Shown here in pieces: positions 1 through 18,586 of a stretch of DNA of 21,001 nucleotides (position 1 is the stretch's first letter; the number at the start of each line of letters is the position of its first letter). Origin of the DNA: a virus; IMG/VR virus record IMGVR_UViG_3300027760_000097, positions 1 through 21,001 of that record; one strand, written 5' to 3'. Made by a program: the position numbers and the translations under genes. The notes beneath the pieces were generated by a model. That model was not told where the DNA came from and searched no databases. It saw nothing but the letters and a program-made list of their open reading frames with translations.

Positions 1-185
1 GTACCCTTTTTAGGAAAAGGACAAACTTCTTTGGGCGCTTTGTAGTATTCCCCGTCTGGGTCCTTATAGAACCTATCCGCACTTTTATACCAATTTGGAA
101 TTTCGGTTTGTGTTGGGACGGGCTTAGAAACATCTTCTTTTTTTATCCAAGGCCTAAAAGGTCTAAATATGGCAACCAAAGACAT
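1..185 (-). CDS. Hypothetical protein, C-terminus cut by window edge
   Basis: The frame is open from an ATG at 185 to the left edge, giving 61 visible codons. The visible N-terminus begins MSLVAIFRPFRPWIKKEDV and contains an IPNWYK motif near residues 33-38, followed by a Lys/Tyr-rich stretch (DRFYKDPDGEYYKAPKEVCPF). The ATG overlaps the TAA of the oxygenase gene by one base (TAATG), which implies translational coupling. A Pro-rich opening followed by IPxWYK reminds me of an uncharacterised phage family found beside tail and accessory genes, but I cannot confirm that from a fragment. It is the last visible member of the accessory operon that also encodes the zinc-ribbon protein and the oxygenase. 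No function is assigned. Confidence 0.7.
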   Translation of the reverse strand, partial: MSLVAIFRPFRPWIKKEDVSKPVPTQTEIPNWYKSADRFYKDPDGEYYKAPKEVCPFPKKG

Positions 186-892
186 TACTTGTGCCCTAAC
201 TCATTAATGTCTGTCATAACAACAACGCAATATTTTGTTCCTGACACCATGGGCAGAGAGGCGTGTTCGTAAATGTAGTTTGAGGGAAATACTGCAATGT
301 CTCCTACTTTTGGTTTATAGATTAAATTATCAAGTCTTGGAAACTTTATATCTCCACCCTCATAATCATCATTAATATATATAACGGCAGATACTGTGCA
401 ATTATAAGCAGGGCCGTGGTCTGCGTGAATATTAAAGTGGGTCCCACTTCCCTCATACTTTACAAAGTTAAAAGCTTCATAATAAACTACGTTAATGCCC
501 CAGTATTTAGCATAATCATCTATGCAGTATTTAAGCTTTTGATAAATTTCTTCATGCAAGTCTATCAGTTCTGCATTTGATTCGTCTCTGAGCCCAAGCT
601 GTTCTTTTTTATATTTAAAGTCTACACAGTCTCTTGCTTTTTTAATTGGGGTATTAGAGTTTGTAACTCTAGCCTCTGACCATTTATATTTGCCATCTGT
701 TGATAGGTTAGACTCAAGGGTGTCAATGTATCTTGCAGCATCTTCACTAGAAAAAGTATTTTGGTAAACGTTTAGGCCCAAACCTAAGTTTTTAACACTT
801 ACCTTATTGTCTAACGCCCTTTCAGGGGTCCTATTTGATGCGGTCTCTGACCTATCCTTTGTAAACCAAATATTTTCGTTTTCGTTATGCAT
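185..892 (-). CDS. 2OG-Fe(II) oxygenase, prolyl-4-hydroxylase-like
   Basis: This 235-residue protein is a non-haem iron dioxygenase that would use 2-oxoglutarate and O2 to hydroxylate a substrate. The double-stranded beta-helix core spans about residues 136-230. The iron ligands fit an HxD...H triad: H156 and D158 in HADHG, and H210. The distal motif HASLPMVSGTKY (210-221) resembles the prolyl-4-hydroxylase pattern H..xPVxxGxK, with K220 as the expected 2OG-binding basic residue ten positions after the histidine; many other families have Arg there. EGGDIKF (178-184) is the usual strand turn between them. The first ~45 residues are polar and unrecognised. The start at 892 is ATG after a weak purine-rich stretch, and its first 8 bases overlap the preceding zinc-ribbon gene. 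The substrate is unknown; nearby proline-rich fibre proteins are candidates (inference). Confidence 0.9.
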   Translation of the reverse strand: MHNENENIWFTKDRSETASNRTPERALDNKVSVKNLGLGLNVYQNTFSSEDAARYIDTLESNLSTDGKYKWSEARVTNSNTPIKKARDCVDFKYKKEQLGLRDESNAELIDLHEEIYQKLKYCIDDYAKYWGINVVYYEAFNFVKYEGSGTHFNIHADHGPAYNCTVSAVIYINDDYEGGDIKFPRLDNLIYKPKVGDIAVFPSNYIYEHASLPMVSGTKYCVVVMTDINELGHK

Positions 893-1145
893 TTTTTTCT
901 TCTTCTTCCCATTTACCTAGGGGGCATGATGCTAGTTCTAGTTTTGCTTTGAATTTCATAACACACCCACATTTTTTGCATTGAGTAGTCAAAGACAAAA
1001 ACTCAGGACAGCCTCTACAGATATTTAATCTGTTGGAATACGCTTCTTCATCTACATATTGAGTACTTGGGTTTAGCAAATCCCAAGGTCTAGTATCTCC
1101 TAAATTTTGTTTATACTTTTGCCAAGGAGTTAAACCTTCTTCCAC
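885..1145 (-). CDS. Small zinc-ribbon-like protein
   Basis: This 86-residue protein has six cysteines in a metal-binding layout: C43 and C46 (CRGC), C56, C59 and C61 (CKKCGC), and C74 before a conserved-looking PLGKW end. The first 40 residues are Trp/Pro-rich (PWQKYKQ, RPWDLLNP). Small phage proteins with CxxCP...CxxCGC...CPLGKW are common near tail genes, generally with no known function. The start is GTG at 1145, preceded at about 6 bases by GAGAGG; no ATG fits. Its last 8 bases overlap the oxygenase gene, so the two are probably co-translated. A structural zinc site is expected. A role as an oxygenase partner or a nucleic-acid binder is possible but nothing in the sequence decides it. Confidence 0.85.
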   Translation of the reverse strand: MEEGLTPWQKYKQNLGDTRPWDLLNPSTQYVDEEAYSNRLNICRGCPEFLSLTTQCKKCGCVMKFKAKLELASCPLGKWEEEEKNA

Positions 1146-1164
1146 GGTGCCCTCTCTATAATTA

Positions 1165-1557
1165 TTAAAGTTCGGCTACCTCATAGGTGATGGTCGGGTT
1201 ACTTGAAAGGGCGGCAATCCTCATATCGTTGTCCCCGAATCCTACGCAATAGCCGTTCATCCCATAATAGACATTATCTTTAAGAAAAGCAAAAGACACA
1301 CACCCGTTTGTGCAAACCACTCCACAAGCCAGTCTGTGTTCTTCGCCTTCAGGAGCAATGAACTCTGACCCATTCCAAACACTAAGTTTGGCAGGGATAT
1401 AGTTCAAATGCGTTATATCTAGTATCTCTGGATTATTAGATAGAGCATAATCTTTGTCTATTTTAGAGTCTAACGGAAGCCCAGAATCATCTAACTCTAT
1501 TGAGTAGAAAATAATTTTATCTCCGTCTAAATTCAGGTAAAAGTTTTTTACTTTCAT
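1165..1557 (-). CDS. Hypothetical phage protein, tail-fibre associated
   Basis: This 130-residue protein matches no family I recognise. It is mostly short beta-like segments with acidic residues, a SVWNGSEF motif at 59-66, and cysteines at 78, 82, 86 and 104 (LACGVVCTNGC, GYC) that could form disulfides or bind metal. There are no membrane segments or signal peptide. The ATG at 1557 follows a good Shine-Dalgarno (AAGGAG, 5-base spacing) that partly overlaps the stop of the Phe-Pro repeat protein upstream, so the two genes are adjacent in one operon. Its place directly after the surface-protein gene suggests an accessory fibre or assembly protein; this is inferred from position only. Confidence 0.8.
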   Translation of the reverse strand: MKVKNFYLNLDGDKIIFYSIELDDSGLPLDSKIDKDYALSNNPEILDITHLNYIPAKLSVWNGSEFIAPEGEEHRLACGVVCTNGCVSFAFLKDNVYYGMNGYCVGFGDNDMRIAALSSNPTITYEVAEL

Positions 1558-1565
1558 ATCGCTCC

Positions 1566-2408
1566 TTAGTCGTCACAACCGCAAACATTACCGCAGTTAT
1601 CGACGATAATGCATGACCCGCCGCCACATGTCCTACTGCAATCTGTAATGCCACAATATCCGCTTGGTACGCAGGCAAAGTATGGAAAAAACGGCGGGAA
1701 GAATGGGAAATACGGTGGAAAAAACGGCGGGAAGAATGGGAAGAATGGGAAGAACGGTGGAAAGAACGGCGGAAAGAACGGAAAGAACGGTGGAAAAAAC
1801 GGCGGGAAGAACGGTGATAGGGTAGTGATTGACCCAGACGCAGGAGAGGCGGTGCTTGTTCCGTTAGCATTAGTTGCTGTAACTGTGTATGTCTGAGAAG
1901 TGCCACCCGTATCACTAATAACAATAGGAGATGAAGCCCCTGTTCCAGTAGTGGCATCACTGCCTGTTACGGTAAAGCCAGTAATAGCGCTACCACCAGT
2001 TGCTGGGGCTGTAAAAGCAATTGAGTTTTGATTAACTCCAGCGGTAGGGGTAGGGGCAGACATTGTTGCAGGGACTGTTGTTGCGGTAATAGAATTTGAT
2101 GCTGCAGATGCTTGAGAAGTTCCAGCAGCGTTAGTTGCTGTTACGGTAAATGTGTAAGCCGTATTAGATTGCAAACCTGTGACTGTAACTGGGGAGGATG
2201 ACCCAGTTCCAGTATACCCGCCAGGAGATGAAGTTACAGTAAACGATGTAGCAGCAGGGGATAGCGCAGGCAAAGAAAATGTAACTGTAGCTGCGCCATT
2301 GTTAAATGCTCTGCCTGTTCCAACATTTGTAGCAGTCCCGATTGTTGGCGCCGATGGCTCTAGAAAGTCGTTTGAAGCCTGTGACTTCTTTCCAAATCTT
2401 TTACCCAT
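1566..2408 (-). CDS. Surface protein: two FnIII-like domains, Phe-Pro repeat, Cys-rich tip
   Basis: This 280-residue protein has four parts. Residues 1-16 are a basic N-terminus (MGKRFGKKSQ). Residues ~17-110 and ~113-196 are two fibronectin-III-like beta-sandwiches, each with the strand motif TYTxTxTxTNAxGTS (YTFTVTATNAAGTS and YTVTATNANGTS). Residues 199-244 are made almost only of Pro and Phe (PFFPPFFPPFFPFF pattern) with three Tyr. Residues 246-278 hold eight cysteines (246, 252, 257, 261, 266, 272, 276, 278) with many glycines, probably a small disulfide or metal-bound knob. FnIII domains are frequent on phage surface proteins and bind sugars or other surfaces weakly. The ATG at 2408 has only a weak Shine-Dalgarno and begins 4 bases after the long fibre gene stops, so coupling is likely. 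A host-binding or capsid/tail decoration role is inferred. Confidence 0.85.
   Translation of the reverse strand: MGKRFGKKSQASNDFLEPSAPTIGTATNVGTGRAFNNGAATVTFSLPALSPAATSFTVTSSPGGYTGTGSSSPVTVTGLQSNTAYTFTVTATNAAGTSQASAASNSITATTVPATMSAPTPTAGVNQNSIAFTAPATGGSAITGFTVTGSDATTGTGASSPIVISDTGGTSQTYTVTATNANGTSTASPASGSITTLSPFFPPFFPPFFPFFPPFFPPFFPFFPFFPPFFPPYFPFFPPFFPYFACVPSGYCGITDCSRTCGGGSCIIVDNCGNVCGCDD
1677..1814 (-). repeat. In-frame tandem repeat encoding Phe-Pro tract
   Basis: The DNA is a degenerate array of 9-base (FFP) and 3-base (P) units. A longer block, plus-strand GGAAAAAACGGCGGGAAGAA, recurs at about 1684, 1720 and 1792, giving a 36-base (12-codon) higher-order period. All units keep frame, so copy number could change by recombination or slippage without breaking the gene. 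Confidence 0.85.
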
Positions 2409-2412
2409 TTTC

Positions 2413-5259
2413 TTAAGCCGTCAAGTCGCCGTAGACAACCCAAGTATTTGTTGCTCTCTTAAAGAGAGTTGCAGATGACCATTGAGTTCTTAGCTTTAAT
2501 CCTGGTGTTGAGTTAACTGTAACTCCAGCATCTCCTGCAATTGTTACTTGTCCTGTAGAAGTTTGAAGAATATCTATAGATGTTCCAACTGGATAAGCCA
2601 CTGCTGAGTTTAATGGAATAGTAATTGTTGTAGCACTTGAACTGGCAACTTCAATTAGAGAGTCTCTTTCTGTAAGTGCTGAAAGTGCATAGGAGGCTGT
2701 CTTTTGGATAATTGGTGTACGTGAGGGTACGCCTTCTTTTGTCTGTGTACCATCAGTAAACGCTAAACCAGCAGAAGATGCTGTTATTAATCCAGAACCA
2801 GATACTGTAAGTGCTGCTACAGTGTTTGTACCAGTAAAAGTTGGTGATGCAAGTGGTGCAAATCCTGAAATACTTGCACCCGCAGGAATTGTTACTGTAC
2901 CAGTAAATGTTGGTGACGCAAGGTCTGCTTTAAGTCCAAGGCTTGTTGATAACCCTGATATCTTAGACTGAGCAATAGCGGCTGACGCATTAATATCTCC
3001 GTCAACAATAGTTCCATCTAAAATCATTGCAGATGTAACTGTACCTGTATCTGCCGCAGTAATTGCAGTACCAGAAATCTTTGTTTTAGCGATTGCTGCG
3101 GAGGCATTAATATCTCCGTCAACAATAGTTCCATCTAAAATCATTGTTGAAGTAACTCCGCCAGTTGCAATATCAAGTGTTCCTGGCGTAGATTCTGTTA
3201 GACCAGAGCCAGCTGTAATTGCTTTAGCAGCATTAAATGCTACATATGTTACGTTTGTTGTCCCAATTGTAATTGCTGATGTATTAGAACAAACATACCC
3301 GTAGCCTGAGCCTACAGTACCTTCAAGTACAAGTGTAAAGTCTCCACCCTTTAGTTCTCCATCGGGAGTATTGTCTGCATCTGTTGCGCGTGACCATGCA
3401 CTTGCTGATGCTACATAGATACCGTTTTGAGTTCCTGTTGTTTGGTCTTTAACAAGAACACGGTCTCCAGCAACAACTGATACACCATCAATTGTTTGCG
3501 CTCCGCTTAGCGTAATATTTGCTGTTGTAGCAACTCGTACTGGTTGATGAAAGTTAAGTCCAGAAACAACATTGTCAACATATGCCTTTGTTGCTGCATG
3601 GAGGTCTACTGTTGGTGCGCCTGAAAGAGTAAGTGCTCCTGTCATCGTTCCGCCAGCAAGTGCTAACTTAGCATCAAGTGCTGTTTGTGTAGCTGTAGAA
3701 ACTGGTTTTGCCGAATCTGCAGTATTGTCTACGTTGTCAAGGCCGACCATTGTTTTTGTAATACCTGAAACGGTACCTGTAAATGTAGGCGCGTTTAGGT
3801 TAGCTTTTAGGTCAAGAGCTGTCTGCTGTGCTGTAGACACGGGCTTGTTGGCGTCTGACGTGTTGTCAACATTAGCAAGACCAACATGAGTTTTTGTTAC
3901 ACCAGAAACTGTTCCAGTAAATGTAGGGTTAGCAATTGGCGCCTTTAGGTCAAGGGCGGTCTGTTGAGCCGTTGAGACTGGTTTATTAGCATCGGTTGTG
4001 TTATCAACATTTGCAAGCCCTACGTGAGACTTAGTTACGCCTGAGACTGTTCCTGTGAAAGTTGGGTTAGCCAAGGGTGCATATGTAGAAGATGCTGTTG
4101 CAGAGGCAAGTTTTAAATCAAGTGCTGTTTGTGTTGCTGTAGAGATGGGCTTGTTTGCATCTGTAGTGTTATCTACATTCCCTAGTCCAACATCTGATTT
4201 AGTTAATCCAGATGGAGAGGTAATTGTTTTATTAGTAAGAGTTTGAGTTCCATTTGTTGTTACAAGTATAGATGTGTCTGTAATTCCGTGCACAGCGGTT
4301 GTGTCTGAAGAATGAGTAGAAACTGCGGTATCAGCATACGTCTTTGTAGCAAGTGCTGCAGTATCTGCAATTCCGTGTACGGAGGTTGTGACTGAGCTAT
4401 GTGTTCCTATTGCGTTGGTTGCATAGTCTTGTGTAGCAAGTGTTCCTGTTACATCTGGAAGAGTTAGGACTCTATCTGCTGTAGGGTCCTCTACTGCTAG
4501 TGTAGTTTCAAAAGCATTTGCTGTAGCGCCTTCAAATACAAGGTTGACACCCGTATCAAGAGACACTGTTCCAGTAAATGTTGGTGATGCAAGATTTGCT
4601 TTAAGGTCAAGAGCTGTTTGTGAAGCTTTAGTTGCAAGTGCATTTGTAACAGTTACTGAGAATGACGCATCATTTCCAAGGGCTGTTGCCAACTCATTGA
4701 GGGTATCAAGTGCACCTGGCGCAGACGCTACAAGGTTTGAAACCGCTGTTCCTACAAATGCTGTAGTTGCAATTTGTGTAGTAGCTGTACCTGCTGCTGC
4801 TGTAGGAGCTGTTGGAGTTCCTGTCAAACCTGGTGATGTAAGGGTCTTGTTAGTAAGGGTCTGTGTATTAGTTGTTCCAACTACCGCACCAGTAGCACCG
4901 TGTGCTTCTGTAAGATTTGCGTGTGTAGTAACATCTGAAGTAAGTGCTACTGTTCCTGTTGCGTCTGGAAGAGTAATTGTACGGTCGGCGGTTGGGTCAG
5001 TTACCGAAACCGTAGTTTCAAAAGCATTATCTGTTGCGCCTTCAAATGTAATGCTTGAGCCAAATGATGGATTTACTGTTGAATTAGCATCAATAAAATA
5101 GTCAAGGTTTATCCAGTGATTTGTACCATCACCAATTTTAAACTTGTTTGTATCGGTTTCGTACCCGATTTCGCCCGCGTTTAGGATAGGGCCGTTGCCA
5201 CTGTTAGTAGATATCCACTGCGCCGCAGTGCCCCTACGCTGTTGCATTCTTGTTGCCAT
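2413..5259 (-). CDS. Long tail-fibre protein with Mtd_N-type N-terminus
   Basis: This 948-residue protein is a modular receptor-binding fibre. Residues 1-55 (MQQRRGTAAQW... AGEIGYETDTNKFKIGDG) match the N-terminal domain type of the Bordetella phage major tropism determinant, used to attach fibres to the virion. FEGAT.NAFETT..VxDPTADR modules lie at 72-107 and 242-276. Four VGLxNVDNTxDxxKPVST repeats begin at 357, 413, 459 and 505. A module with GDRVLVKDQTTGTQNGIY covers ~567-676. MILDGTIVDGDINASAAIA occurs twice (705, 744), and PTFTG motifs recur throughout. Residues ~850-948 form a distinct globular C-terminal domain (LIEVASSSATTITIP...W). The start is ATG at 5259 after GGGAGGA. A candidate promoter just upstream could boost its expression. 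A trimeric, beta-rich adhesin is expected; no chaperone or peptidase domain was recognised. Confidence 0.92.
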   Translation of the reverse strand: MATRMQQRRGTAAQWISTNSGNGPILNAGEIGYETDTNKFKIGDGTNHWINLDYFIDANSTVNPSFGSSITFEGATDNAFETTVSVTDPTADRTITLPDATGTVALTSDVTTHANLTEAHGATGAVVGTTNTQTLTNKTLTSPGLTGTPTAPTAAAGTATTQIATTAFVGTAVSNLVASAPGALDTLNELATALGNDASFSVTVTNALATKASQTALDLKANLASPTFTGTVSLDTGVNLVFEGATANAFETTLAVEDPTADRVLTLPDVTGTLATQDYATNAIGTHSSVTTSVHGIADTAALATKTYADTAVSTHSSDTTAVHGITDTSILVTTNGTQTLTNKTITSPSGLTKSDVGLGNVDNTTDANKPISTATQTALDLKLASATASSTYAPLANPTFTGTVSGVTKSHVGLANVDNTTDANKPVSTAQQTALDLKAPIANPTFTGTVSGVTKTHVGLANVDNTSDANKPVSTAQQTALDLKANLNAPTFTGTVSGITKTMVGLDNVDNTADSAKPVSTATQTALDAKLALAGGTMTGALTLSGAPTVDLHAATKAYVDNVVSGLNFHQPVRVATTANITLSGAQTIDGVSVVAGDRVLVKDQTTGTQNGIYVASASAWSRATDADNTPDGELKGGDFTLVLEGTVGSGYGYVCSNTSAITIGTTNVTYVAFNAAKAITAGSGLTESTPGTLDIATGGVTSTMILDGTIVDGDINASAAIAKTKISGTAITAADTGTVTSAMILDGTIVDGDINASAAIAQSKISGLSTSLGLKADLASPTFTGTVTIPAGASISGFAPLASPTFTGTNTVAALTVSGSGLITASSAGLAFTDGTQTKEGVPSRTPIIQKTASYALSALTERDSLIEVASSSATTITIPLNSAVAYPVGTSIDILQTSTGQVTIAGDAGVTVNSTPGLKLRTQWSSATLFKRATNTWVVYGDLTA
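2987..3146 (-). repeat. Pair of identical 43-bp direct repeats inside fibre gene
   Basis: The 43 bases at 2987-3029 and 3104-3146 are identical, 117 bp apart (39 codons). They encode part of MILDGTIVDGDINASA in each copy. Perfect DNA identity where other repeats have drifted suggests recent duplication or gene conversion. Confidence 0.85.
3670..4191 (-). repeat. NVDNT fibre repeats, 138-bp period
   Basis: Four in-frame copies of a VGLxNVDNTxDxxKPVST...QTALD motif are present. The last three are spaced exactly 46 codons (138 bp) and the first is 56 codons away. Each repeat is followed by a PTFTGTVSG motif except the last. The DNA copies have diverged at third positions, so the array is older than the 43-bp pair further along the gene. 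Confidence 0.85.
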
Positions 5260-18040: not shown

Positions 18041-18586
18041 ATGCTCAATATCAGAATTAATCTAACGATTAATCTAAGAAAGGTTGTATCAATACTAGGA
18101 GTACTCCTCATTACGAGCTCCCAGATGTTACAGCCAGCGTACGCGGTTAAAGAGTTTAGCAAGACAGTATTACCGCCAGAAAAGGCTATTACTGTATCGC
18201 TGACACACTTGAAGGTGACCACTACGCAATCAGCTGCTAGGAAAGCCCTAGCAAGCCCACACGCTAAGTACTTTGATGCGGAAGCAACAGCGTTCTTAAC
18301 TGTGTATACCCAAGACTGGTCCGTTAAAGAATGGAATTGTCTTAGATATATTTGGACTAAAGAAAGCCACTTTAATCCAAAGGCCGAAAACAAGAGCTCG
18401 GGAGCATACGGAATTGCTCAATTTATGCCAAGCACTTGGGGAAACTACAAGGTTGAAAAAACCTCAGACGCCCAACTACAGATTAAATATGGCTTGCGTT
18501 ACATCCTAAAGCGTTACGGCAATGCTGCTGACCCAAATGGAGCGTGTAATGCACAGGCCTTCTGGAAGAAGAACAATTGGTACTAG
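18041..18586 (+). CDS. Secreted SLT-type lytic transglycosylase (lysin)
   Basis: This 181-residue enzyme is predicted to cleave peptidoglycan glycan strands at lysis or entry. Residues 1-35 form a signal peptide: basic N-region, hydrophobic core VVSILGVLLITSS, and probable cleavage after AYA (33-35). A low-conservation spacer to ~92 is followed by an SLT-type catalytic domain: WTKESHFNPKAENKSSGAYGIAQFMPSTWG (105-134), with E108 as catalytic acid, and IKYGLRYILKRYGN (148-161). The fold resembles actinobacterial secreted transglycosylases with the GAYGIxQ motif. ATG follows AGAGGAG at about 8 bases. It is the only plus-strand gene and ends at a strong terminator. Sec export would let it act without full holin release. 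Confidence 0.88.
   Translation: MLNIRINLTINLRKVVSILGVLLITSSQMLQPAYAVKEFSKTVLPPEKAITVSLTHLKVTTTQSAARKALASPHAKYFDAEATAFLTVYTQDWSVKEWNCLRYIWTKESHFNPKAENKSSGAYGIAQFMPSTWGNYKVEKTSDAQLQIKYGLRYILKRYGNAADPNGACNAQAFWKKNNWY

Follow-up and report, generated by a model that had tools for sequence, protein, structure and literature searches.

What does a prolyl-hydroxylase-like oxygenase do among the tail-fibre genes of a phage? The question is raised by virus record IMGVR_UViG_3300027760_000097, of which we analysed positions 1-21,001 (21,001 bp, hereafter the window); most of its genes lie on the minus strand. At the late end the order, 5' to 3' along that strand, is a fibre gene with an Mtd_N domain, a gene for a 280-residue FN3-domain protein (1566-2408; fn3 at 1.7e-9), a small gene without a family match, a DUF6171 gene, the gene for a 235-residue 2-oxoglutarate (2OG)-Fe(II) oxygenase (185-892) and a gene truncated at the window edge. 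A preliminary description had noted in the FN3 protein, three genes from the oxygenase on the same strand, a 46-residue tract made almost only of proline and phenylalanine, and had suggested from proximity and motif that this tract is the substrate. The layout proved to be as described: residues 199-244 comprise 20 Pro, 24 Phe and 2 Tyr, and two small genes (1165-1557 and 885-1145) lie between the pair, all on one strand. We consider it likely that the enzyme is a phage peptidyl-prolyl hydroxylase acting on the Phe-Pro tract of the FN3 protein that the same phage encodes.

The enzyme belongs in the 2OG-Fe(II) oxygenase superfamily (PF13640) by profile, by its double-stranded beta-helix (DSBH) fold and by an HxD...H triad with a basic residue. 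It matched 2OG-FeII_Oxy_3 at 1.5e-9 (39.1 bits against a cut-off of 27) and the phrog_61 2OG-Fe(II) oxygenases at 1.4e-23, and its AF2 model (pLDDT 94.2, pTM 0.91) matched DSBH oxygenases. Across 89 relatives the iron ligands His156 and Asp158 are invariant, and His210 and Lys220, which lie in the distal motif HASLPMVSGTK singled out earlier, are kept in at least 90%. The 2OG-binding lysine, detected by a motif regular expression, is present in 261 of the 265 members of the window oxygenase's cluster. It had been read as the mark of a prolyl 4-hydroxylase (P4H); the residue is indeed there, but it does not define that class, paralogues in the cluster having either lysine or arginine.

In Foldseek searches of the PDB the best folds were PHD2 with a HIF peptide, the algal P4H with and without (Ser-Pro)5, the Pseudomonas P4H in complex with EF-Tu and the P4H of PBCV-1; that of B. 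anthracis was also matched. The top matches reached a TMq of ∼0.65 at 15-16% identity. Prolyl 3-hydroxylase 1 (5.7e-11) and B. anthracis P4H (1.1e-10) headed the profile search. The closest fold and profile relatives are therefore peptidyl prolyl hydroxylases of the P4H/PHD type, at fold level only, and by fold the enzyme groups with protein prolyl hydroxylases; because identity across the fold matches is just 15-19%, the fold alone does not give the substrate. Three other assignments were considered and set aside. There is no Pfam match to the AlkB or TET-JBP nucleic-acid oxygenases, and TET-like PDB matches reached just 3.8e-4, far below the prolyl hydroxylases. A collagen P4H acts on X-Pro-Gly, whereas the window tract contains no glycine, and it is a sister clade alone that adjoins collagen-like genes. 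Finally, an oxygenase of the cyanophage replication-module type would be found beside uvsX or the gp41 helicase; the window enzyme adjoins tail-fibre genes instead.

The FN3 protein combines the tract (1677-1814, minus strand) with a Cys-rich C-terminus. The codons of the tract are mixed (TTC/TTT and CCG/CCA). In a set of 189 distinct tracts, aromatic residues form exact doublets in 3172 of 3183 runs; the amino-acid pattern is therefore conserved, more than expected by chance. An antisense KNGG frame (1609-1896, plus strand) was rejected as a shadow open reading frame on the grounds of the mixed codons and the conserved FN3 frame. Such tracts are rare in cells: 257 Gb of prokaryote genomes contained 28 stretches, against at least 119 matches from a DNA-pattern scan of viral contigs. 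Among cultured phages a search for the Phe-Pro protein gave no match, in a setting where low-complexity masking hides the tract. In a series of variants (L585-L661), His (PPHFPPHFPP), Tyr or Trp replaces Phe, the aromatic position being flexible and the proline spacing kept.

The pairing of oxygenase and tract was surveyed on contigs that are fragments. Among the 80 closest loci, in which the oxygenase is 82-100% identical, the tract was recovered in 65 by a strict pattern and in a further 9 by a looser one; the remaining 6 are cut off upstream, L024 within an apparent Hint-like domain. All contigs long enough to show the tract gene thus carry the tract, and the case that would have spoken against a link, an oxygenase without a proline-rich surface protein, was sought in this set and not found for this subfamily. 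In the reverse direction, loci were picked by the Phe-Pro DNA pattern only; among the matches listed, 68 of 81 had an oxygenase downstream, at most 2.7 kb away, and 2 of 54 had one upstream. As a blind control, loci were picked by the Mtd_N fibre motif only, with 4.5 kb available downstream: the oxygenase was present in 10/10 loci with a tract versus 0/34 without (Fisher p=4e-10), and in 9/9 versus 0/28 after removal of near-duplicates (p=8e-9). The tract definition used here had been widened to variants met along the way (L268); under the first, stricter definition the counts were 9/9 versus 1/35. Variant tracts were seen in the apparent exceptions L268 and L241/G026 (PPGFFAPP, PPPFPPPF). Tract and oxygenase accordingly pair far beyond the proximity noted earlier. 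Of the substrate link suggested then, the co-occurrence is backed by this survey, and hydroxylation of the tract is what we infer from it.

The pairing follows the tract and not its scaffold. When FN3 homologues were collected with a query excluding the tract, an oxygenase lay within 4 kb in 162/166 proteins with the tract versus 2/9 without; in another tally it accompanied 202/207 of those with the tract. The first of the two tract-less exceptions, L187, is a fragment that lies upstream of a genuine tract gene; the second, L263, has a different Phe-rich repeat. In the latter homologue (L263:2897-3676), (FSPFGVFGF)n replaces the Phe-Pro tract, with only a distant oxygenase 3 kb away. On the FN3 tree tract-less proteins are interspersed among tract-bearing ones, and no oxygenase match was found on the whole of the tract-less contigs L416 (52 kb), L246 (62 kb), L300 (44 kb), L258, L281, L311 and L248. 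Tracts on PASTA proteins had an oxygenase in 6/6 testable cases, and tracts on mucin-like TTAP proteins (with an abutting oxygenase gene) and on a PTP-repeat protein were linked too. The tract thus moves between FN3, PASTA and mucin-like scaffolds and keeps the oxygenase.

These data bear on the possibility that the tract is a mere linker and that the oxygenase modifies another residue or protein of the fibre module, for example the Mtd_N fibre, an FN3 or Hint domain or the Cys-rich cap. Conservation of the tail-fibre neighbours alongside the oxygenase would fit such a target, as would the presence of several paralogues whose 2OG-binding residue is either Lys or Arg, which suggests several substrates. 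Against it, the caps vary (Cys-rich, Hint-like and others), the scaffold changes, tract-less FN3 proteins lack the oxygenase, and the proline repeat is the one shared feature; we regard this alternative as unlikely. As a separate observation on the caps, many FN3 proteins with or without the tract (L024:3-443, L049, L058, L059, L062, L416) have a C-terminus that looks Hint/intein-like by eye and could cleave or attach the C-terminus, and other homologues have short Cys-rich caps; a Pfam search of L059 gave no Hint match.

Contigs with an oxygenase and no Phe-Pro tract led to other partners, namely (PTPVA)n and (PVT)n proteins and a PPPF variant, and in Marine virus AG-345-F15 a collagen-like protein is encoded ∼40 bp upstream of the oxygenase. 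With sister enzymes as queries and a 4-kb limit, a proline-repeat gene was found in 72/73 PTPVA-type loci (70 PTP, 1 FP, 1 collagen), the oxygenase lying downstream of a (PTPVA/PTP)n gene in 70/73; in 43/46 collagen-type loci (38 collagen-like (GPP)n, 5 PTP); and in 38/45 distant Phe-Pro-type loci, or 42/45 with a 6-kb limit. Five of seven apparent exceptions in one sister-query set do show a tract on the fragment, and in all sister-query pairs but three the proline-repeat gene is upstream on the same strand. As a base rate, 13/1389 genes at tract-negative phage loci are proline-rich, with none of the Phe-Pro type, and 0/409 genes farther away are proline-rich in the PTPVA set. The enzyme tree separates the clades by partner (Phe-Pro 100/96, PTP 100/98, collagen 100/99), with 8 partner-label changes versus 55 in shuffles. 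This oxygenase family therefore shows near-obligate, clade-specific genetic pairing with Phe-Pro tracts, and its sister clades with other proline-rich repeats. The case for a link is made because three unlike repeats share only proline, the scaffolds swap and the tract has been lost or gained repeatedly.

Several points limit this picture or weigh against a prolyl hydroxylase acting on the tract. Within-clade pairing partly reflects shared descent, which the shuffles do not remove, and grouping by shared genes into independent backbones gave no usable count, single linkage having joined 111 loci. The collagen arm is weak: 11/89 distant genes are proline-rich there, where collagen-like genes are common. 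Some tract genes on other scaffolds lack an oxygenase on partial contigs of 8-38 kb (L089/G007, 37 kb; L153/G012, 38 kb; L167; L138). In the large phages G019 and G036 no strongly proline-rich gene adjoins the more distant oxygenases, and cyanophage relatives (∼30% identical) are placed in modules for replication or other functions, for example beside uvsX and gp41, and not near proline-rich genes; the rule therefore holds for these clades and not for the superfamily. The 6-10 oxygenase paralogues on related contigs make a single substrate unlikely. The 2OG-binding residue does not simply track the partner, being Lys in the Phe-Pro clade, Arg in the PTPVA clade and either in the paralogues. 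Lastly, we know of no Phe-Pro (Phe-Phe-Pro-Pro) peptide that serves as a prolyl hydroxylase substrate.

The position of the cyanophage relatives in replication modules also invites a reading without any substrate link, in which an accessory oxygenase island, serving DNA repair, 2OG/nitrogen metabolism or nucleotide-sugar chemistry, reached the fibre locus through a chance insertion and has been inherited together with it. Published proposals name DNA repair and 2OG metabolism (PMC3037559), and short-chain dehydrogenase (SDR) and epimerase genes lie nearby. Chance insertion is, however, difficult to reconcile with the absence of the oxygenase from the same place in all 34 tract-less fibre loci, with a pairing that persists through scaffold swaps and through repeated loss or gain of the tract, with sister clades that follow other proline repeats, those of the PTPVA set in surroundings free of further proline-rich genes, and with best folds that are protein prolyl hydroxylases and not AlkB or TET; we judge it improbable. 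A further alternative is that the enzyme hydroxylates EF-Tu or a ribosomal protein of the host, in the manner of cellular bacterial prolyl hydroxylases. The EF-Tu prolyl hydroxylase structures 4iw3 and 5v7y among the fold matches speak for it; it is nevertheless very improbable, as such an enzyme would have no need to follow a phage repeat protein or to split into clades by repeat type.

If the tract is the substrate, the enzyme, dependent on 2OG, Fe(II) and O2, would most likely act in the host cytoplasm while the repeat protein is nascent or still unassembled, and prolines of FFPP/FFP units would become hydroxyproline before assembly. With 24 Phe the tract is extremely hydrophobic; hydroxyls could favour an extended polyproline-II rod or stalk that is stiffer and more soluble, and hydroxyproline may alter or tune adhesion or offer sites for sugar attachment. 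Further modification steps are conceivable, given the 6-10 oxygenases on related contigs and, in L013, DUF6065, a glutathione-peroxidase-like protein and an SDR. The FN3 Phe-Pro protein is a probable tail-fibre or receptor-binding component, and its presence in the virion is presumed. That proline is the residue modified is an inference, as are the choice of prolines, the position (C4 or C3) and the physical effect.

Because enzyme and tract are nearly always together and related enzymes adjoin other proline-rich repeats, phages with this pairing probably modify their own proteins chemically. Many aquatic phages may thus modify their repeat-bearing fibre proteins by hydroxylating proline, and each clade of enzymes would have a repeat type of its own. 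We lean slightly towards a still broader picture, a widespread modular prolyl-hydroxylation system for the adhesion proteins of aquatic phages, with a dedicated clade for each repeat ((FFPP)n, (PTPVA)n, collagen (GPP)n) and with additional oxygenases, DUF6065 and sugar enzymes perhaps decorating the hydroxylated repeat, amounting to phage hydroxyproline-rich glycoproteins. With the pairing, a common phage gene that otherwise bears only the annotation 2OG-Fe(II) oxygenase gains a concrete candidate substrate, and three natural enzyme-repeat pairs become available for mutual comparison; the enzymes might also serve as new tools for the production of hydroxylated repeat proteins in bacteria. If the proposal is correct, virion assembly would be tied to oxygen, iron and 2OG.

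The surrounding genes place the window among phages. The major capsid protein is 70% and the terminase 55% identical to those of Streptomyces phage BRock (Borockvirus), the closest match for both, and from this kinship the window probably derives from a phage of an aquatic actinobacterium. BRock carries a tail sheath gene and therefore has a contractile tail. The Mtd_N tail-fibre-like gene (2413-5259, minus strand; PF18454 at 1.3e-12) lies directly upstream of the tract gene, which begins 4 bp past it, and contains a 138-bp tandem repeat of 1.9 copies (3806-4071). Between the tract gene and the oxygenase lie, on the minus strand, the small gene without a family match (1165-1557) and the DUF6171 gene (885-1145; PF19668 at 2e-7, phrog_13558 at 1e-17), whose small product has a CxxC...CxxC pattern. 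The DUF6171 gene shares 8 nt with the oxygenase start, and small proteins resembling its product are encoded directly upstream of the oxygenase in L008, L013 and L050; the four-Cys protein might be a partner of the oxygenase.

Downstream, the start of the edge-cut gene (3-185, minus strand; MSLVAIFRPFRPW...IPNWYKSADRFY) represents the usual neighbour of the oxygenase. In L013 (10708-11472), L037 and L070 its homologue separates the first oxygenase from the second, and the protein has the motif IPxWYKxADRF without a family match. On these three contigs up to seven or eight distinct 2OG oxygenase paralogues follow the Phe-Pro gene (L013:10001-17581), mixed with genes for DUF6065, a glutathione-peroxidase-like protein and an SDR. 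Elsewhere in the window, a transglycosylase-like open reading frame (phrog_15428, 1.8e-28) occupies 18041-18586 on the plus strand among minus-strand neighbours. Promoter-like sites in the window showed no excess over chance, and neither RNA families nor tRNAs were found in it.

How does the proposed system compare with known ones? In a literature search that covered few subscription journals we found no report of phage hydroxylase and repeat-protein pairs, and a text search brought up, among the matches listed, no paper that mentions a phage protein with Phe-Phe-Pro-Pro. The prolyl 4-hydroxylases of collagen and of algae and plants, together with prolyl 3-hydroxylase 1, are cellular enzymes that act on X-Pro-Gly or Ser-Pro/Pro-Pro repeats. 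This group (PDB entries 3gze and 8k0e) shows members that resemble the phage enzyme in fold and in the HxD...H plus Lys motif and include its best profile matches. The cyanophage 2OG-Fe(II) oxygenases (phrog_61), described as EGLN3-like by Phold (PMC12774648), belong to the same superfamily; in contrast to the window enzyme, none of those examined has a proline-rich partner, and several belong to a DNA replication module. In marine metaviromic islands, Fe(II)-dependent oxygenases have been counted as host-recognition genes beside fibres; the passage on them reports no link to proline-rich repeats (PMC3909814). Prokaryotic collagen-like proteins have been described as lacking hydroxyproline (PMC8968730), and viral use of prolyl 4-hydroxylase has been called cryptic (PMC9301287). 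The PBCV-1 enzyme vCPH (PDB 5c5t) is likewise virus-encoded and has the same fold (Foldseek E 1.1e-8). It hydroxylates proline-containing peptides sequence-specifically, its role has been called unknown, and hydroxyproline was not detected in chlorovirus virions (review PMC7019647). PBCV-1 differs in being a virus of eukaryotic algae, whereas the phage enzyme, 16-17% identical to vCPH, is linked to a defined Phe-Pro protein. Mimivirus, for its part, hydroxylates and glycosylates its own collagen repeat protein (mentioned in PMC8968730). Here, too, a virus modifies its own repeat protein, as we propose for the phage. Unlike the phage, Mimivirus is a giant virus of amoebae in which collagen only is concerned and a different enzyme is used.

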